From Pseudomonadota bacterium (GTDB lineage: Bacteria; Desulfobacterota; Syntrophia; Syntrophales; JADFWA01), in NCBI GenBank assembly GCA_015222855.1, contig JADFWA010000182.1:1-10204 (forward strand): DNA of 10,204 nt, in the 5' to 3' direction. The position numbers and the translations under genes are program-made. Position 1 is the first letter of the stretch. Every line of letters begins with the position of its first letter. Under the pieces are notes generated by a model that worked only from the letters and a program-made list of their open reading frames with translations, did no database searches and had not been told where the DNA came from. Shown here piece after piece: positions 1-10,178 of this stretch.

Positions 1-834
1 CTCCGTATCATCGCAGTCAAACCGGAGTGCGTAAGCATTCGTCATGCTCTTGGCAAATTTAGCAGCCCTTTTAACCCAAATTCTCCAGTCCGGAATTGGG
101 TATTTCACCCGGACGTTTGCGCCCGTGACCATTCTGATATTGCCGGCAATAATATCAATCGGAGCGTTCATGATTGCGCCCAGGGAAATCCCTATCCCAA
201 AGATGCCTTCGGAAACCTGTAGTGCTTCAAAGGCGGTACCTCTCTTGATCTTAGCTTTCCACACCTGCTTTTTTATACTGGTCTGTCCTTTTTTCGTGAA
301 CGGGTTTGCCTCAGTACTTCCGTCTAATGCTCGTTTTTTACTTAGCAGTATCTTTTCGGGAGACATTACCTCCGTTAAGATGTCCATACATCGCGCCGCT
401 GTCATTACCATACCCGCGCCAACTGTCACGACGCCCTTTATCTGTGGCGGAGCTGATCTCGCCGCAACTATACCGACCGCTGAAAGCGTCGAAAGTGCAT
501 CCTGCAGATCATCTACTGCCGTCAAAAGTGATGCCCTGGCTGAAACCATCGCCGGTGTGGGTGAACCCAACATCGCAAGGAAGCGTTCCTTCCGCTTTTT
601 CTTCATATATTTGAGTTCCTGGTATCGCTCAGGGGTGAAGTAACCCCAGTTTTTCCTTTTCCACTCCCTTGTTTCCTCGGCAGTGATCGGCTTTTCAAAG
701 CCGATCTTTATGATATCGTCAAAGCCCGGGATATAAATTGTATATCCGTGCTTTGCGATATATTTCGCTTTCATCTTCTGAAACTCCGCCGTTGTCATGT
801 GTGGCAAATGAAAAGGCGCCGTCCAGTCAGGCAT
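1..834 (-). CDS. Conserved viral protein of unknown function, 3' end off the left edge
   Basis: The frame is open from an ATG at 834 to base 1 without a stop, giving 278 residues of an incomplete protein. It begins MPDWTAPFHLPHMTTAEF, then has a stretch rich in Lys, Arg and Glu (about residues 55-85) that looks helical. Two Gly/Ala-rich hydrophobic segments follow (about 117-147 and 208-233) that could be membrane-associated. The best upstream match to a ribosome site is AAGGA, 11 bases before the ATG, which is a little far. I recall similar N-termini in uncultured small viruses but know no assigned function. Its place at the end of the virion-gene operon and its hydrophobic segments suggest a membrane or genome-delivery protein; this is inference. 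If the molecule is circular, the frame would continue 15 codons from base 10204 and stop at 10157-10159, making about 293 residues. Confidence 0.8.
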   Translation of the reverse strand, partial: MPDWTAPFHLPHMTTAEFQKMKAKYIAKHGYTIYIPGFDDIIKIGFEKPITAEETREWKRKNWGYFTPERYQELKYMKKKRKERFLAMLGSPTPAMVSARASLLTAVDDLQDALSTLSAVGIVAARSAPPQIKGVVTVGAGMVMTAARCMDILTEVMSPEKILLSKKRALDGSTEANPFTKKGQTSIKKQVWKAKIKRGTAFEALQVSEGIFGIGISLGAIMNAPIDIIAGNIRMVTGANVRVKYPIPDWRIWVKRAAKFAKSMTNAYALRFDCDDTE

Positions 835-923: not shown

Positions 924-1475
924 TTATCCTGGAGTCGCCCAGACTCTAGGCGGTTCATCCGGATCGTTCGGAATAACATATATTAATATTCCGTCCTTGG
1001 CAGCCGCCGCAAACATATCCCTGTCGATCATGCGACAAACGAGTAGCCGGCGATCCGGTTTGGGAATCTTTGGGTCTTCACGCCACAAATATCGATAAAC
1101 CATCAATTGTCCAACGGCTCGTAATCCTGGCCCATCCGCAACCTCAATAAGCCAGGTTTCCTTGTCTGTCTCCGCGATCGCATCGGCCCGCTTGCATACA
1201 TTCATGCGGTACATTCTTTGCATCGGGTCCCGTTCTTGCGCTGGCGTTAATTCGGGACCACCTAAAAGACAATCATAGTATAACCTCTGAAACAGGTATC
1301 CATAACGCTCCAGGAACCTGTACCAAATCGGGACATCCGGACGTAACATGTGTGGCGGCCGTCCTCTCCAATTCACACTATAAGCTCTACCCAAGGTGGT
1401 CGGCATCTGCATCTCCATTCTCTCGGTTATCTGTACTCCTTCGGCTAAGCGTCTTCTTGATCCAACATAGATCAT
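924..1475 (-). CDS. PD-(D/E)XK nuclease-like protein lacking the catalytic lysine
   Basis: The central part reads CKRADAIAETDKETWLIEVA, followed by GQLMVYRYL. This matches the core of PD-(D/E)XK nucleases: Asp98, then a beta strand with Glu111-Val-X113, then a helix with Gln123 and Tyr127. The C-terminal RRLLVCRMI and GILIYVI strands also fit that fold. In active members residue 113 is Lys; here it is Ala, so catalysis is doubtful and the protein may only bind nucleic acid or use a displaced lysine. The start is uncertain. ATG at 1475 has GGGGA upstream but overlaps the preceding gene by 89 bases. ATG at 1406 (MPTTLGRAYS) has GGAG at 6-base spacing and overlaps by only 20 bases, so I think 1406 is at least as likely. 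The substrate is unknown. Confidence 0.75.
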   Translation of the reverse strand: MIYVGSRRRLAEGVQITERMEMQMPTTLGRAYSVNWRGRPPHMLRPDVPIWYRFLERYGYLFQRLYYDCLLGGPELTPAQERDPMQRMYRMNVCKRADAIAETDKETWLIEVADGPGLRAVGQLMVYRYLWREDPKIPKPDRRLLVCRMIDRDMFAAAAKDGILIYVIPNDPDEPPRVWATPG

Positions 1476-1575
1476 TCCCCATCTTTGCGATTCGTGATTC
1501 TAACCTCACGAAATATGCGCCAAGTAAAATCACTACTGGCAATAACTTAAACATATAGTCAATCCACGGTGTCAT
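1387..1575 (-). CDS. Small single-pass membrane protein, possible holin-like protein
   Basis: A 62-residue protein with a hydrophobic segment near the N-terminus (about residues 9-24, LLPVVILLGAYFV) follows a short MTPWIDYMFK lead. After it comes an amphipathic, charged helix (LESRIAKMGNDLCWIKKTL) and a polar acidic tail. The ATG at 1575 has AAGGAG 8 bases upstream and overlaps the stop of the upstream spike gene as ATGA, indicating translational coupling. One membrane span plus a short coil is the general build of many small phage membrane proteins, including holins and lysis accessory proteins. No specific family motif is visible, so a lysis role is only a guess. A minor membrane protein of an internal-membrane virion is an equal alternative. 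Confidence 0.7.
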   Translation of the reverse strand: MTPWIDYMFKLLPVVILLGAYFVRLESRIAKMGNDLCWIKKTLSRRSTDNRENGDADADHLG

Positions 1576-2552
1576 ACAACCAGCTCCTTGATTATGAAAT
1601 AATCCGTGTATGATGTTGATGGGTTGTCTACCTCAAATTTCATCCTGCCATCTGGCTGTGTTGTTGCTGGAAGTGTGAAATCGGTAAGAACTTGCTCATC
1701 TGCCTTCCACATATTCATAACGCTTCCATCAACCGTAATCTTCCAAAGGATGTCCTGATCTCCGATTTCTCCGATATTAAACTCAAACCAATTACTTCCA
1801 TTCCAGATCTGCCCTACATCCCAAACCTCATAAAAACTCAGAGATATCATATAGGCGGTATTGCCTATAAAAAAATACCACTGGTCACTAGTGGTCGCCA
1901 CCTTGTTTTTTATGTTGACTTCGAATGTCGGTGGAACCTGTCCGGATCCCGTCCGGAAAATACCTGCAATTCCGATAGGGGTTGGCGCGTAAAGCCGCAA
2001 ACTGCCATCCTCAATAGTTGCCGTTCCTCCGCTTATCTCATTCTTCGACCAGCTATTTGTCGTTAAATCGTCAAATTGCTCATTAAACCAGGTTTTTAGC
2101 TTTCTCTTGAGGCCTCTAGGGCCAATTCGAAACGGCCCACCACTAAAAACGCTAACATAAAGCGGTGCGATCGATCCGCCTGTGGGCGGGTCTGGAATGT
2201 CTACACCTATCCCAAACACCGGCGTCGGGGTTATGGCTTCAGGTGTAATCGGCGTCGGTTCAGCGTCTACCCCTGGTGTTGGTTCAGCGATTACCCCTGG
2301 TGTTGGTTCTATGGTTGGCGTCGGTGTTACGGTTATTGTGGGAGGAACCTCGGGAGACGTCGGAGGGATCGGTGGTTCAAGCAGTTCCGGGTGTAGTTTT
2401 TCCAGCCTGCGAGTCAACCACTTCGGCAGGATACTTCTAAGCAACCGCTGTGCAAACATTTGTTTTGCCCACTTCGGATACTGTTCAAAGCACTCTTTCG
2501 TGAGTCCTTTTCTACATGGTTCCGGCCAGGTTGCTTGTAGTTTTGTTTCCAC
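1572..2552 (-). CDS. Proline-linker spike protein with lectin-like C-terminal domain
   Basis: This 326-residue protein starts at GTG 2552. An overlapping ATG at 2554 is in another frame. The N-terminal ~55 residues are basic and helical and could anchor it to the virion. Residues ~58-118 are a low-complexity linker of repeated Pro-Thr units (TPTPTIEPTPGVIAEPTPG and similar), encoded by near-repeated DNA at about 2265-2310. The C-terminal ~170 residues (from about KTWFNEQFDDLTTNSWS) alternate Trp/Phe-rich strands, for example DQWYFFIGNTAYMISLSFYE and WKITVDGSVMNMW. This resembles concanavalin/LamG-type jelly-roll lectin domains, but the assignment is by pattern, not by search. Anchor, rigid stalk and glycan-binding head suit a receptor-binding spike at the capsid vertex. 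It lies in the virion-gene operon. Confidence 0.72.
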   Translation of the reverse strand: METKLQATWPEPCRKGLTKECFEQYPKWAKQMFAQRLLRSILPKWLTRRLEKLHPELLEPPIPPTSPEVPPTITVTPTPTIEPTPGVIAEPTPGVDAEPTPITPEAITPTPVFGIGVDIPDPPTGGSIAPLYVSVFSGGPFRIGPRGLKRKLKTWFNEQFDDLTTNSWSKNEISGGTATIEDGSLRLYAPTPIGIAGIFRTGSGQVPPTFEVNIKNKVATTSDQWYFFIGNTAYMISLSFYEVWDVGQIWNGSNWFEFNIGEIGDQDILWKITVDGSVMNMWKADEQVLTDFTLPATTQPDGRMKFEVDNPSTSYTDYFIIKELVV

Positions 2553-2554
2553 AT

Positions 2555-2950
2555 TTATGATTCCATGCCAGCCGCGGCCGCAAGTAGTTCGTTAAATGAT
2601 AGTGGTTGTAATACTTTTTTTGGCAGCATTCCGATTTGGATGATTATTTCACCAAAATCCGCTGCGAGCGTTGTCCAGATATGAGCTGTTAATATCGTGT
2701 TGCCTTGCTGTAGCTCATAAAATTCTCGGAAGGAAACCACGGTTGCATCTCCTCGCAACTTTTCACCCCGGTTTAATGGCCATACTTGGAAATTATCGTC
2801 AAACACCTGCACAAACGTTTCATGATTACAGCCAGACTGGAAAAGAACATCAACCTGATGAATCACGCCCGCTGTAAGGTGCATCTTTAGTTTGTGAGGG
2901 TTCGCTTCGGTGTCTCCGGCGTCTGGTGTGTAGGAAAAAGCAAAAAACAT
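2555..2950 (-). CDS. Small beta-rich virion protein, unknown
   Basis: A 131-residue protein with ATG at 2950 preceded by GGAG at 7-base spacing. The sequence alternates polar and hydrophobic residues in strand-like blocks: HLTAGVIHQVDVLFQSGCNH, FVQVFDDNFQVWPLN, ATVVSFREFYEL. It ends with an Ala-rich tail. This looks like a compact beta-sandwich. Its stop is two bases from the GTG start of the spike gene, so the two are probably co-translated. Position between two putative receptor-binding proteins suggests a vertex or spike-base protein. I have a vague memory of similar proteins in uncultured small viruses but no function. No catalytic motif is visible. Confidence 0.72.
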   Translation of the reverse strand: MFFAFSYTPDAGDTEANPHKLKMHLTAGVIHQVDVLFQSGCNHETFVQVFDDNFQVWPLNRGEKLRGDATVVSFREFYELQQGNTILTAHIWTTLAADFGEIIIQIGMLPKKVLQPLSFNELLAAAAGMES

Positions 2951-2967
2951 TTAATAACTCCGACGAT

Positions 2968-3168
2968 TTATAGGGTGTACTCTTCGATGATGCCTTCAGA
3001 GATAAGGTTGTCTCTAATTTCAACAAGCTGCTCAGTTGGTATGTTGAGGTGTTCCCTGATATCTGCTGTTGATACATACCCTTTTTTTATTGTCGCCATC
3101 TTAATTACCGATAAAACCCGGTTGGTTTGAAACTTAATAAGCTCAGTATGTTTTAACCTATAGTCCAT
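2968..3168 (-). CDS. Small helical protein with possible helix-turn-helix
   Basis: A 66-residue protein starting at ATG 3168, three bases after the stop of the beta-propeller gene and with no clear Shine-Dalgarno, so probably translated by re-initiation. Residues ~32-64 (VSTADIREHLNIPTEQLVEI then a helix and EGIIEEYTL) have the spacing of a winged-helix/HTH unit, with 'STADIREHLNIP' as the first two helices. It could be a small DNA-binding protein, or merely a small helical virion component. Its position inside the virion operon is unusual for a regulator. Confidence 0.6.
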   Translation of the reverse strand: MDYRLKHTELIKFQTNRVLSVIKMATIKKGYVSTADIREHLNIPTEQLVEIRDNLISEGIIEEYTL

Positions 3169-3171
3169 TTT

Positions 3172-3777
3172 TTATATCGCTATTTGATAGATCATATTTG
3201 TCTCGTTATCACATACCCATAAATACTTCCCATCAAACGTTAAGCCTGTTGGAGCGGTGCCAGGCGAGGCAAACGACCTTATTTCTATTCCGTCGAGGTC
3301 AATTTGGTAAATTTTATGGAGGTAAGTATCGCCCACCCATAAATACTTCCCATCAAACGTTAAGCCCTTGGGGTTATCTCCAGGTGTTACGAATGATTTT
3401 ATTATTACTCCATCGAGGTTTAATTGGTAAATCGATGTTGTTGTTATATCACAAATCCATAAATACTTCCCATCAAACGTTAGGTCGCGAGGAGAAGCGA
3501 CGGGCGAGGCAGGCGAGCTTATTTTTATTCCGTCGAGGTCAATTTGGTAGATTTTAATCGTAACCTTATCGCTTACCCATAGATACTTCCCATCAAACGT
3601 TAAACCATGTGGATCATTCCCAGGTATGGCAAACGACCTTATTTCTATTCCGTCGATGTTAAGCTGGTAAACTAATCCTGTTGTCCGGTCGGTGTGCCAT
3701 ATATATTTTCCATCAAATGCCAAACCATGGGCATTTACTCCAGGCGTCGTAAATGACTTTACAACCTCGCCGCTCAT
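3172..3777 (-). CDS. Five-repeat beta-propeller protein, putative receptor-binding spike
   Basis: A 201-residue protein made almost entirely of five 40-residue repeats with the pattern PxGLTFDGKYLWVxDxxTxxIYQ, then a DLDG loop and an IxIRSFxxPG strand. The repeat resembles blades of NHL/SMP-30/YncE-type beta-propellers. The N-terminus (GEVVKSFTTPG) supplies the strand that the C-terminal repeat (ending IYQIAI) lacks, as in circularly closed propellers, so a five-bladed ring is likely. The ATG at 3777 overlaps the preceding stop as TAATG. There is no signal peptide or catalytic motif. In the virion operon next to the lectin-like spike, a receptor- or glycan-binding role is the best inference. 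The close similarity of the repeats at DNA level points to recent tandem duplication. Confidence 0.82.
   Translation of the reverse strand: MSGEVVKSFTTPGVNAHGLAFDGKYIWHTDRTTGLVYQLNIDGIEIRSFAIPGNDPHGLTFDGKYLWVSDKVTIKIYQIDLDGIKISSPASPVASPRDLTFDGKYLWICDITTTSIYQLNLDGVIIKSFVTPGDNPKGLTFDGKYLWVGDTYLHKIYQIDLDGIEIRSFASPGTAPTGLTFDGKYLWVCDNETNMIYQIAI
3217..3720. repeat. Five 120-bp tandem coding repeats
   Basis: The 24-base core encoding TFDGKYLW recurs at exact 120-base spacing at 3217, 3337, 3457, 3577 and 3697. The first three copies are identical over the core, the fourth has one change, and the fifth (the N-terminal blade) is the most diverged. The spacing has no indels, so reading frame and blade length are preserved. 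Confidence 0.95.
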
Positions 3778-4244
3778 TAGCGGATACCATTCAATTTACA
3801 GGTTAATGTAAACGTATTCGTAGCATCGGTTCCAGTTGCGACAACATTAATTTTCAACCTGGAACCCAAGATTGGTGCCTCAATACACTCACTTTTAGCC
3901 CCGGCGGTATCTTCATACATTAGGGAACTAAACGGCCCACGTGCGTAGTTTTCGAACGTTGCGCCTCCTTCGCTGAACTGAAGGTTTATCTTTATTGTTC
4001 CAGGAGCGTTCGCTACACCTAAAATAATACGTAGAAGAACCTTCCTGTATCCACCGCAAGCTATTTCGGCGGACGTGTACGTGGTCTGTACATTATTAAA
4101 AACCTGGTTGTTAACTGCCGTAACAACCGTAGTTGCCGAAAGAGCTTCAACCGCCGCCTGGATCGCCTCTTCCGCTGTGATTTGTGTTTCCTGGTTAGCC
4201 GCCGATGCTCTCGCCGGTGTGCTCCTTACTCCAAAATCAGTCAC
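3777..4244 (-). CDS. Beta-rich minor virion protein
   Basis: A 155-residue protein with GTG start at 4244. GGGAGG lies 7 bases upstream, and the start overlaps the previous stop as GTGA. Residues ~1-45 are Ala-rich and helical (ITAEEAIQAAVEALSATTVV). The rest is strand-rich (KVLLRIILGVANAPGTIKIN, LQFSEGG, SRLKINVVATGTD, TFTLTCKLNG), consistent with a single jelly-roll-like beta-sandwich. It sits two genes downstream of the capsid gene and directly before the propeller gene. A vertex (penton-like) protein or spike base is plausible, but I see no diagnostic motif. Confidence 0.75.
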   Translation of the reverse strand: MTDFGVRSTPARASAANQETQITAEEAIQAAVEALSATTVVTAVNNQVFNNVQTTYTSAEIACGGYRKVLLRIILGVANAPGTIKINLQFSEGGATFENYARGPFSSLMYEDTAGAKSECIEAPILGSRLKINVVATGTDATNTFTLTCKLNGIR

Positions 4245-4603
4245 AAGTCCACCTCCCAGCCGACACAGGTCATAATTAACACATCATTGTTCGTTGTGCC
4301 TGTTAATTCAGAGAAGAAAATATCTCCCTCACCCAGGATAATATCTGACCGTGATACAGCCAACTCACAGGCAGCTATAGTTTGTAACTCATCTAAATAG
4401 TGATTAATTCCACCGTTCGTAATACCCAGGCGACACTTTGTGTAGGCGTTTGTCTCATCTTCCACTGTCACGTGTGAGAGAACCCGGATCCTTTTCGCTT
4501 TTATCCTCGATAGCTCAATTCTCACAGTTGCACCGGTTACCCCTGTTTTCATGCGGGTTCGCCGGTACAACCGTGTAAAGTTGTTAATATTTCGTGCATC
4601 CAT
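4241..4603 (-). CDS. Small beta-rich virion protein next to capsid gene
   Basis: A 120-residue protein with ATG at 4603 and AAGGG about 9 bases upstream. The N-terminus is basic (DARNINNFTRLYRRTRMKTG). The remainder is predicted strands: ATVRIELSRIKAKRIRVLSH, AYTKCRLGITNGG, DIFFSELTGTTNNDVLIMTC. It lies 24 bases after the capsid stop and its own stop overlaps the next start, so the three genes form one translational block. The size and beta content would suit a minor capsid or penton protein; the function is not established from sequence. Confidence 0.75.
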   Translation of the reverse strand: MDARNINNFTRLYRRTRMKTGVTGATVRIELSRIKAKRIRVLSHVTVEDETNAYTKCRLGITNGGINHYLDELQTIAACELAVSRSDIILGEGDIFFSELTGTTNNDVLIMTCVGWEVDL

Positions 4604-4627: not shown

Positions 4628-5698
4628 TTAATAATTTCTGATTTGTTGCGTTATTACCTCACAAGTACCACTCGCTGAACTGCCGGCTGTAAGCGTAAGC
4701 TTAAGGCTCCCGATTTCTGCCACATCAAACCAGTCTGCAATAACATCTTGCATGCCGAATGGGAGGCAAAAGGCACTGTGCGGAATCAACCCGCTCAAGA
4801 CCATCATAATTTCCGCCGCCGCTCCATCGTAAACCGTAATACCTCCACCATAACTATCGATAATATAAGCATCTGCATCCGCCGCTACACCTACAAGCGT
4901 CGCTATCCGCTCATAAGATGGTGTGCAATGAAAAACCCGGTTCGCCGCGGCCGCTGTTTTGCAATAGATATTCTCTGTGAATTCTGGCCAGAGTCGATAC
5001 AGTTTCAGTAGGTCTGAGGTTTTTTCGTCATTAATAATAACCTTTTTATCGTTATCCTGGCTCAACTTCACCTGGTTGAATTGCTGCCAAGGCTGAAGCG
5101 ATGTTGACATTGATTGTAAGATAAGCTTGCGATAAGGGTAGTCTGTGGCAAGGTCGATGTGTTCTTTGGATCCAGAAACAAGCGTGTATCCATACTGTTC
5201 TTTACTCATAAGGAAGGCAGTCGGGGTGATAGCCTTCTCATCGAATAGGTGAGCATAGACAGAGATAAGGGCTTCATCCGGACTTGACCCACCGGCCGTA
5301 AGGTCATGGGTTATTTTTAGTTGCGGGTTAGTGAATTTCCTGGGGTCAAAAGCCAGTATCTCATCATACAGGAATCTACCAAAATCGATGTGATAGGTAG
5401 CAATAGCATACACATCATTAAGGTAGTTGAGAACGGTGTGTGGCATTCTTCCCTGGTCATAATAGTTAAGCGCCTGTGCCTCAACCCCCGATAAAGAGAA
5501 AAGCACATCAGAACCATCAACCAGCTCGATCTTGCTGATCATTTTCGCTGGGTGAGCGGTTGGCACATCTCCGTTATTATACCCTTTAATTTGTATAATA
5601 AACCTGGAGATCGGGTCAGCAACGTTAATGTCAATCGTTTTTACCCCTGCGGTATTCGCCTCTTCGGCGGGTAAAATTGACGCAAGTCTATAATTCAT
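4628..5698 (-). CDS. Putative double-jelly-roll major capsid protein
   Basis: A 356-residue protein with ATG at 5698 and GGGAGGG 5 bases upstream, the best ribosome site in the late operon. It is rich in beta strands, with blocks I associate with double-jelly-roll capsid proteins of small tailless viruses: KIELVDGSDVLFSLSG (56-71), then FGRFLYD (106-112), then AFDPRKFTNPQLKIT (116-130). The second half has comparable strand density (YRKLILQS near 189-196, VKLSQDNDKKVI, GSLKLTLTAG, GTCEVITQQI at the end). The length fits this capsid class (roughly 250-400 residues) and no HK97-fold or microvirus capsid features are visible. Being flanked by small beta-rich proteins and spikes supports the role. 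The assignment rests on recalled family resemblance and would be settled by structure prediction. Confidence 0.72.
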   Translation of the reverse strand: MNYRLASILPAEEANTAGVKTIDINVADPISRFIIQIKGYNNGDVPTAHPAKMISKIELVDGSDVLFSLSGVEAQALNYYDQGRMPHTVLNYLNDVYAIATYHIDFGRFLYDEILAFDPRKFTNPQLKITHDLTAGGSSPDEALISVYAHLFDEKAITPTAFLMSKEQYGYTLVSGSKEHIDLATDYPYRKLILQSMSTSLQPWQQFNQVKLSQDNDKKVIINDEKTSDLLKLYRLWPEFTENIYCKTAAAANRVFHCTPSYERIATLVGVAADADAYIIDSYGGGITVYDGAAAEIMMVLSGLIPHSAFCLPFGMQDVIADWFDVAEIGSLKLTLTAGSSASGTCEVITQQIRNY

Positions 5699-5724
5699 TA
5701 TTTCCCTCCCATCTTTCTGTCGAG

Positions 5725-5988
5725 TTAATCTTCAACGGGTTTCTGTATTGTGGTTTGTGTGTCTGGTTCCACCTCATCTGTAATATATACGGGCTTTTTA
5801 ACCCCTTCTTCTTTTTCAGGTCCTGGAAGAGGGACCTCTACTTCCATTGCAACGCCCAGGATGCCCGCAATTGAAACAGCAAGGTCAACCGCTTCTTGTA
5901 TTGTTATCTTGCCATCTGCAAGAGCTGTCATCGCCCAGGTCGATACAATCCCGAAAATCTGAAAGATTTTAAACATACTTATATTCAA
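5725..5988 (-). CDS. Small protein with hydrophobic N-terminus and DGKIT motif
   Basis: An 87-residue protein starting at TTG 5988. GGGAGG lies 6 bases upstream, and the TTG overlaps the stop of the upstream mini-gene as TTGA. An in-frame ATG four codons later is an alternative start. Residues ~5-23 are hydrophobic (MFKIFQIFGIVSTWAMTAL). ADGKITIQEAVDL then resembles half of an EF-hand loop and helix, followed by a hydrophobic helix (AVSIAGILGVAMEV) and a Pro/Glu-rich tail. Phage-encoded small proteins with this 'DGKIT-x-x-E' helix are common, but I cannot assign a function. Its place directly before the capsid gene suggests a minor membrane or virion protein. Confidence 0.7.
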   Translation of the reverse strand: MNISMFKIFQIFGIVSTWAMTALADGKITIQEAVDLAVSIAGILGVAMEVEVPLPGPEKEEGVKKPVYITDEVEPDTQTTIQKPVED

Positions 5989-6110
5989 TTTTTTCCTCCC
6001 TTCTGTAATATTTTCCTTATCTTCTTAAGCACTAAGATAAAAATAAGAGCGATAGTAAAAATTATGTGCTCAAAATAAGTTAAACGGATGTTGTAAAATG
6101 GATATAAGAT
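5985..6110 (-). CDS. 41-residue membrane mini-protein with ATC start
   Basis: Between the genes ending at 6114 and starting at 5988 is an open frame without ATG, GTG or TTG. AGGAGG (6118-6123) lies exactly 7 bases before an ATC codon at 6110, in frame with a stop at 5985-5987 that overlaps the next TTG start. The peptide has a lead of LYPFYNIRLTYFEH, one clear membrane span (about residues 16-28, IIFTIALIFILVL) and a basic tail KKIRKILQKGGKN (positive-inside). Its final Gly codons double as the next gene's ribosome site, just as the previous gene's final Gly codons make this one's. Perfect spacing at both ends and a textbook membrane segment argue for a real gene with a rare start. A sequencing error at the start codon is the alternative. 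Confidence 0.55.
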   Translation of the reverse strand: MLYPFYNIRLTYFEHIIFTIALIFILVLKKIRKILQKGGKN

Positions 6111-6113
6111 GCC

Positions 6114-6536
6114 TTATCCTCCTAACTTGGTTTTAACCATCGCATCAACAACCCTTTTCACTCTGTCGATATTTCGAGGATCCCGTTTTGGGAACTTCGG
6201 CCCCAGGTCAACGGCTTCGATTGCCGCCCTGAAAGGCGCAAACCCTTTCTCATATTCAGGGCCAGCATCATAAACGCCTTCCGCAAAGCGACCAGGCCCT
6301 TTTTTAAGAGCTTTCTCTTGCCATTTGGTCGAACCTGCTTTTTCCACGCCTTTTCCAAACAGATCCTTGGCGGCAGCCGCGTCAATGCCAGCTTTCCAAT
6401 TTTCCTTTGCTGCGAGTGTTTCCTCTTTCCAGTCTCGACGGGGGTTTTTCACACCTATCTTATAGTCCTCCGTCCTGCCCGGTGTAACCCGTGTCCACTT
6501 GTCTCTAATAGATGCTAAAGACCTAATTTCTGCCAT
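6114..6536 (-). CDS. Conserved 140-residue virion-operon protein, unknown
   Basis: The ATG at 6536 is preceded by AAGGAGG at about 9-base spacing. The protein is highly charged, has no membrane segment, and reads as a repeated set of short amphipathic helices with Trp and Gly. Examples are SLASIRDKWTRVTPGRTEDY, DWKEETLAAKENWKAGI, KWQEKALKKGPGRFAEG and FAPFRAAIEAVDL. Net charge is basic. I recall this kind of protein in uncultured small phage genomes close to capsid genes, without known function. As first confident gene of the late operon it might be a scaffolding-like or DNA-condensing protein; this is speculation. Its terminal Leu-Gly-Gly codons form the ribosome site for the following mini-gene. 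Confidence 0.8.
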   Translation of the reverse strand: MAEIRSLASIRDKWTRVTPGRTEDYKIGVKNPRRDWKEETLAAKENWKAGIDAAAAKDLFGKGVEKAGSTKWQEKALKKGPGRFAEGVYDAGPEYEKGFAPFRAAIEAVDLGPKFPKRDPRNIDRVKRVVDAMVKTKLGG

Positions 6537-6832
6537 AATAAAATACCTCCTTGTCTCAGTTTTGGCACGCTATTTGCGCCCCTTTCATCTTCCATATAAT
6601 ATTTTCTATAAAAGTCAAGAATTTTCTTTTCTGGCACATTCCTTGCTTTTCCATCCTTGCTGTAATTTTTTTCCTGTTTTGCGACTTCAAATGAGGTCGA
6701 TTTGTGTAGTTTTTCTTCAACCGGTTGCGGCCGGAAAAAAATATAATTAATAGAGCAAGGCGATTCCTTCTTTTTTCGTTCGGAGTGTAGAAATTCCGCT
6801 TTGTGCTCCATGCTATTTGATAGATGGAGCAA
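6515..6832 (-). CDS. Doubtful 105-codon ORF in the late leader
   Basis: An open frame from TTG 6832 (or ATG 6811, residue 8) that ends 22 bases inside the next gene. It is Lys/Glu-rich with no recognisable domain. Against it: neither start has a good ribosome site, its C-terminus reads through the next gene's strong Shine-Dalgarno, and its 5' end lies in inverted and direct repeats (6753-6841). For it: the length, and charged composition in the middle part (about PEKKILDFYRKYYMEDE). I list it because a compact genome rarely leaves 450 bases unused, but a non-coding leader is at least as likely. Confidence 0.3.
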   Translation of the reverse strand: MLHLSNSMEHKAEFLHSERKKKESPCSINYIFFRPQPVEEKLHKSTSFEVAKQEKNYSKDGKARNVPEKKILDFYRKYYMEDERGANSVPKLRQGGILLWQKLGL

Positions 6833-6841
6833 AGCGATTCC
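6753..6841. promoter_or_regulatory. Three copies of a GAGCAARGCGATTCC element, one inverted
   Basis: GAGCAAGGCGATTCC at 6753-6767 and GAGCAAAGCGATTCC at 6827-6841 differ by one base. A third copy, inverted and with a 2-base insertion, lies between them (6795-6809 on the plus strand). The inverted copy and the right copy form a strong hairpin: CGCTTTGTGCTCCAT at 6797-6811 pairs with ATGGAGCAAAGCG at 6824-6836. The position upstream of the first late gene suggests operator sites for a regulator of late transcription, or a structured leader. Confidence 0.55.
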
Positions 6842-6876
6842 GTCTTATCCCTAATATATGATTAATCTTTATCATT

Positions 6877-7049
6877 ATCTGCAGTCGGATTGCAGATCGG
6901 TTCAGATGTCGACGTTTCGGGGATCCGGCTAGGCCGAAAGATTTTTGCAAATTGCAAAAGAGGGGGTTAAGGGGGAAACTTCCCCCTTGGAAAAGCTCCC
7001 ACAGACTTGATTACGATATTGTAATTCAGTATTGTAATCCGGATTACAA
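6877..7049. promoter_or_regulatory. Palindrome-rich control region between the early and late operons
   Basis: This 173-bp stretch holds six inverted repeats one after another. (1) ATCTGCA/TGCAGAT, 6877-6883 and 6891-6897. (2) TTTCGG/CCGAAA, 6915-6938. (3) TTTTGCAA-A-TTGCAAAA, 6943-6959. (4) AAGGGGGAA/TTCCCCCTT, 6969-6988. (5) ATTAC/GTAAT, 7010-7025. (6) The perfect 18-base palindrome TTGTAATCCGGATTACAA, 7032-7049. Repeats 5 and 6 share the GTAAT half-site and may bind the same protein. The region follows the early terminator and precedes the late genes, so it probably carries the late promoter and its operators. I could not place a convincing sigma70 promoter. An origin of replication is an alternative. 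Confidence 0.65.
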
Positions 7050-7084
7050 AAAAAGGCCGGCCAGGATTTCTCCCGACCGGCCTT
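7048..7084 (-). terminator. Rho-independent terminator of the early operon
   Basis: On the minus strand AAGGCCGG (7077-7084) pairs perfectly with CCGGCCTT (7053-7060) across a 16-base loop, and the right arm runs into seven T residues (7048-7054). It begins 24 bases after the stop of the gene at 7109-7468. This is a typical intrinsic terminator and separates the early from the late operon. Confidence 0.88.
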
Positions 7085-7108
7085 GATCTCAAAAAGCTAT
7101 CTTCGATC

Positions 7109-7468
7109 TTATTCAAATAGGAATTTATCCGCCTTTCCGTTTCGTCCATACATTTCTTTCAATCCTTTCGAGCAACGCTTACAAACAACTTGCAGTCTCC
7201 CGATTTCGTCCCACCAGGTATATTGTTTTCCGTAAAACTCCGTTCCGCACACACTACATTTAAAGGCGGTTCCTCTCTTGATCTCCTTGCCAGGAAGACG
7301 GTTTTCTCCCACCTCAATAGGTTTCTCTTCAACACAGGCTAAAAGCCGCCTTACAATGAAGCCTATCGGTCTGTCAAACTCCACACCATACACTCTTTTC
7401 ACATATGATAGCACAATCTCAAATGCCTCAATAAGCTCCTTTTCCCTTTCGGTATCCGGCTTTGCCAT
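7109..7468 (-). CDS. Zinc-ribbon protein, last gene of early operon
   Basis: A 119-residue protein with ATG at 7468 and GGGAGG 8 bases upstream. The N-terminal half is helical and charged (ELIEAFEIVLSYVKRVYGVE). The C-terminal half carries two knuckles, Cys71-X2-Cys74 in KCSVCGTEFYG and Cys96-X2-Cys99 in VVCKRCSKG, 21 residues apart. This is a zinc-ribbon layout. Similar ribbons bind nucleic acid or protein partners, often in transcriptional regulation. No enzymatic motif is visible. It follows the other Cys-rich early genes and sits directly before the terminator. Confidence 0.8.
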   Translation of the reverse strand: MAKPDTEREKELIEAFEIVLSYVKRVYGVEFDRPIGFIVRRLLACVEEKPIEVGENRLPGKEIKRGTAFKCSVCGTEFYGKQYTWWDEIGRLQVVCKRCSKGLKEMYGRNGKADKFLFE

Positions 7469-7487: not shown

Positions 7488-7742
7488 TTAACCCCACACC
7501 TCTCTATTTAACTTCTCTTCGGTTTCCCCCTGCATCGTCCTCATCAGGGCAAACATTGCGTCCATCCTAACGGTACTACTCACGATACAAGCCCTTGCAA
7601 CTCTAAGGGCTTCCTTGTTTGCGCAATAGGCGCACATCGGCGTTTTGCCGATATCATGCTGACAGGTGCAACCGCTTTCCCGCCCATTACGCTCAATAGC
7701 CTCATCAATCATTGAGATTATTACTTTTTTACAGTCTGTCAT
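7488..7742 (-). CDS. Small Cys-rich putative zinc-binding protein
   Basis: I choose ATG 7742 (84 residues, MTDCKKVIISMIDEAIE). It overlaps the upstream stop as ATGA and has AAGGGG 8 bases upstream. An ATG at 7778 in the same frame would overlap the neighbour by 40 bases. The centre reads GCTCQHDIGKTPMCAYCANK, so Cys-X-Cys, a His and Cys-X2-Cys could form one zinc site. The flanks are helical, and the C-terminus has Met-rich MDAMFALMRTM. No known family comes to mind. It is probably a small regulatory or host-interaction protein. Confidence 0.72.
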   Translation of the reverse strand: MTDCKKVIISMIDEAIERNGRESGCTCQHDIGKTPMCAYCANKEALRVARACIVSSTVRMDAMFALMRTMQGETEEKLNREVWG

Positions 7743-7990
7743 ATCCCGATCCCCTTCTTGTTTAATTCTGCCGTCCATAGTTCTTTCATTTCGTCGCTAC
7801 AATGTGACATAGCATCTTTCCAGCCCGGACACCTTCCCGTTTTCATGTAGAACTTCATCTGATAAAAGATGGAACCTTTGTCGTGAGGAAGCTCTTTGTC
7901 ATGGAACCTCGCACATTCTTGACACGCCCCTTTTACCGGAGGCAACAAAACAAACCTTCCCGTTCTTGCACTGTTCTTATTCCTCTTCAT
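7739..7990 (-). CDS. Conserved small phage protein with Cys/His motif
   Basis: An 83-residue protein with ATG at 7990 and AAGGGG 7 bases upstream. It contains GACQECARFHDKELPHDKGS, then FYQMKFYMKTGRCPGW and DAMSHCSDEMKELW. The ordered set C-X2-C-A, H, PHD, YQ, GR-x-P-x-W, DAM-x-HC is one I recall from many phage and prophage hypothetical proteins. The Cys and His residues (two Cys near the start, Cys64 after a His) suggest a bound zinc. Function is unknown. It is translationally coupled to the next Cys-rich gene. Confidence 0.8.
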   Translation of the reverse strand: MKRNKNSARTGRFVLLPPVKGACQECARFHDKELPHDKGSIFYQMKFYMKTGRCPGWKDAMSHCSDEMKELWTAELNKKGIGI

Positions 7991-8010
7991 TGTTATTCCC
8001 CTTCAAGAAA

Positions 8011-8193
8011 CTATATAATATCCCTATAAATAATTCCGTTTGCCGCAATAACTATTTCACCCTCATCATAAAAGGCCCCCCAAAACTCAGGGGAATTGAT
8101 TAAACCTCTTCCTTTCTTATTAAACTCATATTCATCTATAAATTTTACAACTTTCTCTGAATCTTCGTTTTCGTGTATTGCTACAGTTGTCAT
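8011..8193 (-). CDS. 60-residue acidic protein of unknown function
   Basis: The ATG at 8193 has a strong GGGGAGGG about 7 bases upstream, directly behind the parS-like site. The protein is acidic and likely a small alpha/beta fold: TTVAIHENEDSEKVVKFIDE, then FWGAFYDEGEIVIAANGIIY. No family recognised. It is the first gene after the 458-bp gap, so a protein bound at the parS site could control it. Confidence 0.7.
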   Translation of the reverse strand: MTTVAIHENEDSEKVVKFIDEYEFNKKGRGLINSPEFWGAFYDEGEIVIAANGIIYRDII

Positions 8194-8213: not shown

Positions 8214-8229
8214 TGTTTCACGTGGAACG
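8214..8229. promoter_or_regulatory. parS-like ParB-binding site
   Basis: TGTTTCACGTGGAACG differs by one base (final G instead of A) from TGTTTCACGTGGAACA, a form of the bacterial parS consensus TGTTNCACGTGNAACA. The left half-site is perfect and the right has one change. It lies 20 bases upstream of the start codon at 8193, just before the ribosome site, and about 570 bases downstream of the parB-like gene. It could be a partition or nucleation site, an operator, or both. I found no second site of this quality in the window. Confidence 0.78.
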
Positions 8230-8651: not shown

Positions 8652-8798
8652 TTAGGCCGGGATACCTGTCGTGTCGGGCTCTATCTTCTTTTCAAGGGTT
8701 ACGGTTAGCTTATCCTCGGTTTTTTCTTCCCGCACCTTCTCCCAGCCAAAACCCCTGGTCAAGTTCACTAAACGCTCTATTTCTAAATGTATCTTCAT
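8652..8798 (-). CDS. 48-residue protein coupled to ParB
   Basis: The ATG at 8798 overlaps the ParB stop as ATGA, and the frame runs to TAA at 8652. The peptide starts MKIHLEIERLVNLTRGFGWE and continues with strand-like KLTVTLEKKIEPD. A beta-alpha-beta-type mini-fold with an RGFGWE core is suggested. I recall similar tiny phage proteins with 'ERLVNL-RGFGWE' but no function. The tight coupling suggests it acts with ParB or is made in fixed ratio to it. Confidence 0.75.
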   Translation of the reverse strand: MKIHLEIERLVNLTRGFGWEKVREEKTEDKLTVTLEKKIEPDTTGIPA

Positions 8799-9622
8799 TT
8801 TTTCCGTTTCTCCATTTCTGCGATAACTTTAATAACGTTTTCTACGCAATCCGGGCAGGCTCGAATAACTGACTCGTTCCCGATCTCCATCGGGTCTTGA
8901 CATATATCACATGCGACGTAATAAGGCTTGGTTTTCATTGGGGAGGTAAGGGGGAGTTCTCTTTGGGTACCTTTTTCCTCCCTTCGCTTCGTGTCTTGAT
9001 AATCTTTTCTCCATTGCCTTACGATCTCTTGCGTTGCCCCGTGATCGATGCAGAATTCAAGATAATATGTGATTGCCGTCATGTCTCCCATCATCCAAAG
9101 CTCTTCGGCAACTGTTTGTGATATCTTTTTTTCGTGTACCGCCTCTTTGAGACATGGAGGCATTTTTACCATCTCCACTCGCCGCCTTACAACCCCTGCG
9201 CTTTTCCCAATCCGCTTCCCAATTTCCTCAAATGATAACCCGTGGTTTTCATGAAGATTATGGTATATGTTGGCCTCTTCAATCGGCGTTAAGTTTTCGC
9301 GGGCAAGGTTTTCTGATGCCCTGGCAAAGGCGACCTGCGTTTTATTGCCCTCGAATATGGTGCAGGGAATTTCGTCCCAACCCAACAAGGTCATCGCGGC
9401 AAAGCGTCTGTCTCCAGCGACAACTTCATAACGTCCCTTGTTTTCGACAACAAGGATTGCTTGAAGTAAACCATTTTCCCTGATATTTTCCGCAAGTTCC
9501 TTTATTCCGGACTTGGGAATATCAAGTCGATCAACCGTTGATGGTCGATCGATCTTAGCCCGTTTAATTTGCAGTACTTTACTTTTTCCCGCTAATTTCT
9601 TTTTTCCAGGTTCTTTCCGCAT
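8795..9622 (-). CDS. ParB/Spo0J-family protein with C-terminal zinc ribbon
   Basis: This 275-residue protein has the ParB N-terminal nucleotide-binding domain: IKELAENIRENGLLQAILV (40-58), GDRRFAA (70-76, the GxRRxxA box that binds CTP in this family) and ENLARENLTPIEEA (104-117). A central HTH domain follows (129-155, LSFEEIGKRIGKSAGVVRRR then MVKMPP). Instead of the usual C-terminal dimerisation domain it ends in Cys238-X2-Cys241 and Cys256-X2-Cys259, a zinc ribbon. The ATG at 9622 overlaps the AbrB-like gene by 44 bases, with GGAG 12 bases upstream. ParB proteins bind parS and slide or spread on DNA; a parS-like site lies downstream. No ParA is present, so partition by itself is not assured. 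A regulatory or DNA-coating role, or use of the host ParA, is possible. Confidence 0.9.
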   Translation of the reverse strand: MRKEPGKKKLAGKSKVLQIKRAKIDRPSTVDRLDIPKSGIKELAENIRENGLLQAILVVENKGRYEVVAGDRRFAAMTLLGWDEIPCTIFEGNKTQVAFARASENLARENLTPIEEANIYHNLHENHGLSFEEIGKRIGKSAGVVRRRVEMVKMPPCLKEAVHEKKISQTVAEELWMMGDMTAITYYLEFCIDHGATQEIVRQWRKDYQDTKRREEKGTQRELPLTSPMKTKPYYVACDICQDPMEIGNESVIRACPDCVENVIKVIAEMEKRKK

Positions 9623-9821
9623 TTAGTTCTTTATCTCCGTGGAAGGTGACTTGCGATGGTATTAGCGGGTTCGCCCTCTCTATGATCAAAACATCCTGTT
9701 CGTGCATCGTGACCATAACGAACTCTTCACTTTCCCAACCTTTTGTTTTGATCATTTCCCGCGGGAGCGTGACCTTGAATGTCCCCGCGTGTTGTATTAA
9801 CTTCACTATTTTAGTTTTCAT
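9579..9821 (-). CDS. AbrB/SpoVT-like DNA-binding protein
   Basis: An 80-residue protein. Residues ~10-48 (GTFKVTLPREMIKTKGWESE then FVMVTMHEQDVLIIER) match the swapped-hairpin AbrB fold: strand, 'LPREM' turn-helix, Gly-Trp, strand, strand. Such proteins are dimeric DNA-binding regulators or antitoxins. No toxin gene is adjacent, so a transcriptional regulator or ParB-linked factor is more likely. ATG at 9821 lies only about 6 bases after the -10 of the promoter at 9828-9856, so the mRNA may be leaderless. The promoter contains an inverted repeat that this protein could use for autoregulation (inference). The gene overlaps parB by 44 bases. Confidence 0.82.
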   Translation of the reverse strand: MKTKIVKLIQHAGTFKVTLPREMIKTKGWESEEFVMVTMHEQDVLIIERANPLIPSQVTFHGDKELNAERTWKKEISGKK

Positions 9822-10017: not shown

Positions 10018-10059
10018 TAGTTTATCCGGAATTTTATGCCTTTTTCTTCCTTTTAACCG

Positions 10060-10147
10060 GTTTTTATCTACCTTTCAAATTGTTTTTATCTACCTTTCAA
10101 TTGGTTTTTATCTTCCCTATAAATGGTTTTTATCTTCCCTATAAATT
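10060..10147. repeat. Four head-to-tail 22-bp iterons
   Basis: Four consecutive 22-base units start at 10060, 10082, 10104 and 10126, all beginning GTTTTTATCT. Units 1 and 2 agree at 20 of 22 positions, units 3 and 4 at 21 of 22, and the two pairs at about 17. A degenerate unit in the same phase (10038-10059) matches unit 3 at 15 of 22. Spacing of 22 bases puts every copy on the same face of the helix, as in iteron origins that bind a replication initiator. Confidence 0.85.
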
Positions 10148-10178
10148 GGAGCTCACTCACCAAAGAGGCCTGGGGTTA

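Follow-up and report, generated by a model that had tools for sequence, protein, structure and literature searches.

A contig from a Syntrophales metagenome-assembled genome probably holds most of the genome of a tailless double-jelly-roll virus of the Odin-group type

In the accessible text of Yutin et al. 2018 (PMC5894146), the Odin group of viruses is described as having a double-jelly-roll (DJR) capsid protein that resembles those of STIV and PM2 and as having no packaging ATPase. The same text lists a conserved small gene preceding the capsid gene, ParB, a PD-(D/E)XK protein and a single-jelly-roll protein, while AbrB and helix-turn-helix (HTH) proteins appear in the legend of its genome map and the stand-alone genomes span 7-11 kb. 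A role in packaging was inferred there for the small pre-capsid gene from its position. Huginn virus, a member of this group, has been tied to the Asgard archaeon Ca. Odinarchaeum, and the accessible text of the same report states a distant relation between Huginn virus and Skuldviridae (Varidnaviria), viruses of Lokiarchaeia (Tamarit et al. 2022, PMC9246712). Here, we describe contig JADFWA010000182.1 of assembly GCA_015222855.1, analysed over its full 10,204 bases (the window), which belongs to a metagenome-assembled genome (MAG) of the bacterial order Syntrophales and carries a predicted DJR capsid gene at 4628..5698 of the minus strand. With high confidence, we read the window as most of the genome of a tailless icosahedral bacterial virus of the Odin-group type that does without a packaging ATPase. 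A poorly known group that was defined from metagenomic data thereby gains one more member, and no new group is founded.

The initial annotation had proposed, from sequence blocks alone, that the 356-residue product of this gene is a DJR capsid protein, and had named structure prediction as a way to check it. The open reading frame (ORF) occupies exactly positions 4628-5698 of the minus strand, encodes 356 aa and contains the quoted blocks KIELVDGSDVLFSLSG, FGRFLYD and FDPRKFTNPQLKIT, which are among the best-conserved parts of the family. Residues I57, E58, V60, G62, S63, L69, G71, G107, D112 and L127 are invariant in all 11 aligned members. Since whole-length relatives match the protein at phmmer E-values of 7e-34 to 3e-89 (values that refer to small target sets), the conserved blocks are not a product of chance; L049, the remotest among the 10 tested in this way, still gave an E-value of 8e-12. 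When the proposed structure prediction was carried out, the model, which covers residues 1-356 and thus the whole protein, showed two jelly rolls in one chain. Its best 50 matches in the PDB are all viral capsid proteins, and the predicted structure is close to the STIV and PM2 capsids. The two outcomes that the initial annotation had listed as refuting it, a different fold and a confident hit on some other protein family, were not obtained. On the basis of this model, the shell protein of the window is assigned the DJR fold. A fold predicted from the single sequence was useless (pLDDT 31.7) and was not used.

At the sequence level, the capsid protein alone matched no Pfam family above the cut-off and no PHROG, and no PDB sequence (best E-value 0.25). 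A tblastn search of 50,697 phage records likewise gave no match, the two alignments at E-values of 2 and 6 being attributable to chance. The capsid protein of L049 passes the Pfam family P2_N (PM2 coat) with 32.3 bits against a cut-off of 25 bits, as the only one of the 11 members, and hhalign aligned the capsid family (A8) with a PM2/autolykivirus profile (A10) at a probability of 63.6.

Scans of viral and genome contigs with the single capsid sequence found no relatives. On viral contigs, a degenerate DNA query built for F....F.NPQL.I matched 31 stretches, one of which (L026) encodes a full-length relative with 34% identity (E 1e-63). The other 30 are not relatives, the family profile finding only L026 among 771 ORFs of at least 60 aa. 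With a two-sequence profile, four of 67 stretches in public genomes proved to be relatives, namely L043 (Chloroflexi RBG_13_51_18), L044 (Desulfobacterales HyVt-363), L045 (Ca. Euphemobacter frigidus, partial) and L046 (Chloroflexi LacPavin). Later scans added L047, L048 (a contig identical with L053), L049, L051 and L054, and genome searches added L084 to L089 with duplicates set aside, giving 17 capsid genes including that of the window. Identity to the window protein is 31-44% in eight of the 10 aligned relatives and 27% and 20% in the other two. The family is scarce, being found in two of 395 sampled genomes of the host phylum (the host's own and G295), two of 301 in the phylum of G155 and two of 395 in that of G156; weak matches (E 0.03-0.26) in seven of 155 genomes of the class were discarded as chance. 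The capsid tree is weakly resolved, with good support for two of 14 inner branches, and therefore no claim about clades is drawn from it. More distant relatives carry another large protein (L026 8463-10409, L049 11096-12643, L054 7694-9586, L051 1-1349), which measures 515-648 aa in the first three and 449 aa in L051, where the contig end cuts it; all four share [RK]DRLRGWMASW near the start.

Gene families were assembled with iterated profiles over 18 contigs, that is, the 17 with a capsid gene and L083. The capsid protein is present in 17 of the 18, and the most widespread family, found in all of them, is a small basic protein termed cons1, which in the window has 140 aa (6114..6536, minus strand). 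By coordinates, each of the 17 contigs with a capsid gene has cons1 upstream of it, and the net charge of cons1 is +7 to +13 in the 16 sequences, out of 18, that were aligned. These features suggest that cons1 may act as a DNA-condensing or packaging factor. The Walker A pattern [AG]xxxxGK[ST] was not found in ORFs of at least 80 aa from the incomplete window and from six relatives with direct terminal repeats; the sole matches in the 18 contigs fall in ORFs of L087, L088 and L084 outside the shared families. No trace of a DNA-packaging motor of the usual kind was seen in the window. The terminal repeats were detected in six of 17 contigs tested and measure 223 nt in L085, 48 in L043, 84 in L026, 57 in L053 and 141 in both L049 and L051.

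All genes retained in the window lie on the minus strand. The leftmost one (1..834) belongs to a family of large proteins found in six of the 18 contigs and is cut by the contig end after its first 278 aa, while five relatives have 534-642 aa. Therefore, the window is not a whole genome, and at least about 0.75 kb is probably missing; if the cut gene has the length of its relatives, the genome exceeds 10.9 kb. The earlier description of a virus of about 10 kb thus applies to the contig (10.2 kb), which is not the complete genome. The window ends without a terminal repeat, and its genome is probably circular.

The accessory genes bear on the comparison with described groups. The window encodes a ParB-like protein with a C-terminal four-cysteine zinc ribbon (8795..9622, minus strand; Pfam ParB_N 4e-14, HTH_ParB 3e-12, TIGR00180 over the cut-off). 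ParB was found in 15 of the 18 contigs and its four zinc-ribbon cysteines are invariant in 13 of 13 aligned sequences, two partial rows of the 15 being left out; it was not found in L046 (6.5 kb), L047 (9.6 kb) and L089 (5.1 kb), all without terminal repeats. In the window, ParB (region 8652-9821) shares the orientation of cons1 and the structural genes, and it runs opposite to them in L083, L085, L043, L044, L045, L087 and L088; this difference would come from an inversion of the region or from a join made in assembly. At 8214..8229 lies the palindrome TGTTTCACGTGGAACG, which has one mismatch to the parS consensus TGTTYCACGTGRAACA. Core-bearing matches with up to three mismatches did not occur in 50 mononucleotide shuffles. 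Elsewhere, L083 has a two-mismatch site at the aligned place and L085 two three-mismatch sites, and the 15 other contigs have none. On this evidence, the window plausibly has a ParB-parS pair, and for the group as a whole the case is weaker. A 183-aa PD-(D/E)XK-like protein (924..1475, minus strand) belongs to a family found in six of the 18 contigs. D98 and E111 are invariant in six of six, no Pfam or NCBIfam family was matched, and the nuclease-like ORFs of L026 and L084 show IEAK when read by eye. The AbrB/MazE-like regulator (9579..9821, minus strand; homologues in L044, L087 and L088) is a weak assignment, with phrog_4681 (antitoxin) at E 0.066, MazE at E 0.021, below the cut-off, for the L087 homologue, and no NCBIfam match. 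From the accessory set named initially, ParB and the parS-like site were thus recovered, whereas the AbrB label draws on sub-cut-off matches. Close to the contig end, 4.9 copies of a 22-bp direct repeat (10041..10150) precede the AbrB-like gene and form a candidate origin or operator; no array of this unit was found in seven relatives searched, and L085 has a different 22-bp repeat in 2.7 copies.

Set beside the published description, the window shares with the Odin group a DJR capsid, a small pre-capsid gene, ParB, an HTH gene and a small genome and, less certainly, PD-(D/E)XK-like and AbrB-like genes. It also shares the lack of a packaging ATPase, strictly shown for the six terminally redundant relatives, the window itself being incomplete. 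Since the accessory genes (ParB and, tentatively, AbrB and a nuclease, with no ATPase) match the Odin-group description as far as the accessible text of PMC5894146 gives it, the kind of virus is known, and the initial statement that it has no close named relative stands only at the sequence level, within the phage records searched. In contrast to the group as described, the window has propeller-like and Pro/Thr-rich spike candidates, its nuclease-like protein lacks the lysine, and it comes from a bacterial MAG, whereas Huginn virus is archaeal. Several observations weigh against the assignment. Membership is argued from gene complement and predicted fold, compared by published description; the capsid family profile gives no match to PM2 or FLiP capsids searched as single sequences; the catalytic lysine of the nuclease-like protein is replaced in six of six sequences including the window (by Arg in one); the AbrB identity is weak; and the parS-like site is not kept in most relatives. 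In addition, the window is incomplete and without a terminal repeat, and the missing part may hold a further gene.

Three other explanations have to be weighed. A FLiP/Finnlakevirus-like single-stranded DNA phage with rolling-circle replication, a DJR capsid and no ATPase would agree with much of the layout. FLiP (Finnlakeviridae) and phiCjT23 resemble the window in having a DJR capsid, a small one-strand genome and short genes flanking the capsid gene. In FLiP, consecutive genes encode 84 aa (structural), 311 aa (capsid), 123 aa and 158 aa, all 16 genes lie on one strand of 9.2 kb (record coordinates), and an ATPase is lacking according to the accessible text of PMC5894146. The profile and fold scores speak against this kinship, which we regard as very improbable. 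In the window, an incomplete contig, a Pfam scan of 20 ORFs recognised no M13-like rolling-circle Rep. A relative of PM2/corticoviruses or autolykiviruses whose FtsK-like packaging ATPase sits on the missing segment receives still less credence from us. PM2 (Corticoviridae) and Autolykiviridae share the DJR capsid, the L049 protein reaches P2_N, and the PM2 genome has 10.1 kb. Against this stand the absence of Walker A from ORFs of at least 80 aa in the six terminally redundant relatives and the failure of tblastn with the window capsid to find a PM2 relative in the phage collection. The PM2 group further differs in its FtsK-like ATPase and, in some members, a rolling-circle replication Rep (accessible text of PMC5894146), neither of which was seen in the window.

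The STIV/PRD1 side of the DJR viruses is likewise set apart from the window. PRD1 has a packaging ATPase. Larger genomes, of 18 and 15 kbp, are given for STIV and PRD1 in the accessible text of PMC6260650, and a packaging ATPase for the STIV group in that of PMC5894146. Lastly, the window might be a plasmid-like or domesticated element whose DJR protein is a cellular DUF2961-type enzyme. The direct terminal repeats of 48-223 nt in six of 17 contigs and the provirus-like L084 argue for a virus rather than a chromosomal gene, and this explanation appears the least credible to us.

The remaining genes are in line with the neighbourhood initially described, namely small proteins, transmembrane mini-proteins (P62 and an 87-aa protein), a propeller-like repeat protein, ParB and Cys-rich small proteins. 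Among the 20 ORFs, Pfam recognised neither tailed-phage genes, whose absence had been claimed, nor a lysis gene. Between cons1 and the capsid gene lies the 87-aa small membrane protein with one hydrophobic segment (5725..5988; homologues in L044, L088 and L089; this and the following genes are on the minus strand). Beyond the capsid gene follow structural candidates of 120 aa (4241..4603; homologues in L044, L087 and L049) and 155 aa (3777..4244; homologue in L046), and a 201-aa beta-propeller-like repeat protein (3172..3777; homologue in L046), a spike candidate whose gene contains a DNA repeat with a 120-base period, equal to 40 aa, and which matches Pfam Vgb_lyase at E 3e-8, below the cut-off. 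A winged-helix-like protein of 66 aa (2968..3168) has weak Pfam matches to winged HTH families. P131 (131 aa, 2555..2950), whose family is present in 16 of the 18 contigs, has neither a Pfam nor a PDB sequence match and may be the penton or single-jelly-roll protein; L043 encodes two copies (6603-7010 and 7728-8123). The second spike candidate, of 326 aa with a Pro/Thr-rich stretch (1572..2552), has homologues in L043, L044, L087 and L088, and the small membrane protein P62 (62 aa, 1387..1575), with one transmembrane segment, has homologues in five other contigs. On the other side of cons1 lie a Cys-rich zinc-ribbon-like protein of 119 aa (7109..7468) with weak Pfam zinc-ribbon matches, Cys-rich P96 (96 aa, 7488..7778) and Cys-containing P83 (83 aa, 7739..7990), the latter two with a homologue in L083. 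P48 (48 aa, 8652..8798), which follows ParB, has homologues in five other contigs.

The window is contig C85 of a MAG of 1.9 Mb in 423 contigs, about 81% complete. The RecA of this MAG, a 245-aa fragment, scores above the bacterial RecA family cut-off. Its identity reaches 71% with the RecA of G295, from the same phylum, and 68% with that of a Desulfobacterales-labelled MAG, against 66% and 59% with the other two near-full-length RecAs compared. The cons1 family occurs in two of 155 genomes of the class (G000 and G003), both MAGs of one family, and related contigs in two such MAGs speak for a real host link, short of proof. MAG bins can include stray contigs, as in G156 (Desulfobacterales HyVt-363 label), which contains four distinct capsid-gene contigs (C300, C76, C254 and C56), a sign of a multiply infected host or of a bin of mixed origin. 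No CRISPR spacer was seen when the window DNA was compared with 41 genomes, in which it matched only itself and G003:C130; at most seven candidates per genome were scored, and short spacers could be missed. In the 52.7-kb contig L084 (G714:C45), the capsid locus adjoins bacterial histidine kinase and response regulator genes, and L084 is likely a provirus in a bacterial chromosome.

L083 (G003:C130, 10,643 bases), from a MAG of the host's family, shares with the window cons1 (70% identical DNA), the large gene, the nuclease-like protein, ParB, P62, P48, P96 and P83, and iterated profiles detected neither a DJR capsid gene nor P131 in it. The capsid position is taken by an unrelated 288-aa protein (5081-5947, minus strand), followed by a gene at 4701-5066 (minus strand). 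A 49-aa ORF after cons1 (5950-6099) matches the 51-aa ORFs that in L045 and L043 separate cons1 from the capsid gene; therefore, the change starts exactly where the capsid gene is expected. The only relative detected for the 288-aa protein is ORF3 of the Altiarchaeum virus Altivir_6 (29% identity over 88%, tblastn E 4e-22, phmmer 4e-30). Its profile gave a single weak match (E 5e-4) in 395 genomes of the phylum and no link to the DJR family or PM2, and the next gene has no profile link to P131. Altivir_6, which clusters with Altivir_1 by genome (accessible text of PMC8324899), has all eight genes of its record listed as hypothetical. Its ORF1, separated from ORF3 by ORF2, matched cons1 at E 1.6e-4 in a small set, with 11.6 bits against 11.1 for 2,000 of its own shuffles, a score reached by 7 and 3 of 20,000 shuffles with two cons1 profiles (eight proteins tested), and an hhalign probability of 20. 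ORF1 may be cons1-like, a hint that we leave as unproven. L083 also carries an M15-like endolysin gene (6713-7087, minus strand; Pfam Peptidase_M15_4 E 4e-5, just below the cut-off; phrog_1768 E 1e-4).

The replacement in L083 would fit a backbone of cons1, ParB, nuclease and large gene that acts as an ATPase-less chassis and exchanges whole capsid genes, a tentative reading that we consider rather doubtful. The 288-aa protein may instead be a very diverged DJR protein, and, L083 having no terminal repeat, a DJR gene may sit on an unassembled part. If true, the exchange would point to the capsid gene of Altivir_6-type viruses and would mean that one packaging system serves two capsid proteins.

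For the window as an Odin-group type virus, the following working model can be proposed. It starts from the predicted DJR fold, from a conserved block in which cons1, a small membrane protein, the capsid gene and structural candidates follow one another, and from the lack of a detectable motor. By analogy with PM2, FLiP and phiCjT23, capsid trimers would be arranged as pseudo-hexamers over an internal membrane anchored by the transmembrane mini-proteins, P131 would be the penton, and the propeller-like and Pro/Thr-rich proteins would be spikes. Without an ATPase, basic cons1 might condense or recruit DNA while the capsid assembles round it. If no ATP-driven pump loads the particle, cons1 is the leading candidate for the protein that gets the genome inside. 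ParB, perhaps on the parS-like site, would maintain the genome in the host or regulate early transcription.

DJR viruses without an ATPase bear on the origins of DJR viruses, as discussed in the accessible text of PMC8812541, and on how DNA is packaged without a motor. No Odin-group isolate turned up in the literature, where no search was aimed at isolates. The present work provides 17 aligned capsid proteins and a confident fold prediction. It also provides a conserved basic partner, cons1, found in all contigs examined, and it points to the bacteria behind the MAGs as likely hosts, one of the contigs being a likely provirus. The contig with the possible capsid swap offers a starting point for finding the capsid protein of an archaeal virus type. 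Together, the aligned capsids, the fold, cons1 and the bacterial MAGs make the question of motor-less packaging testable in vitro.
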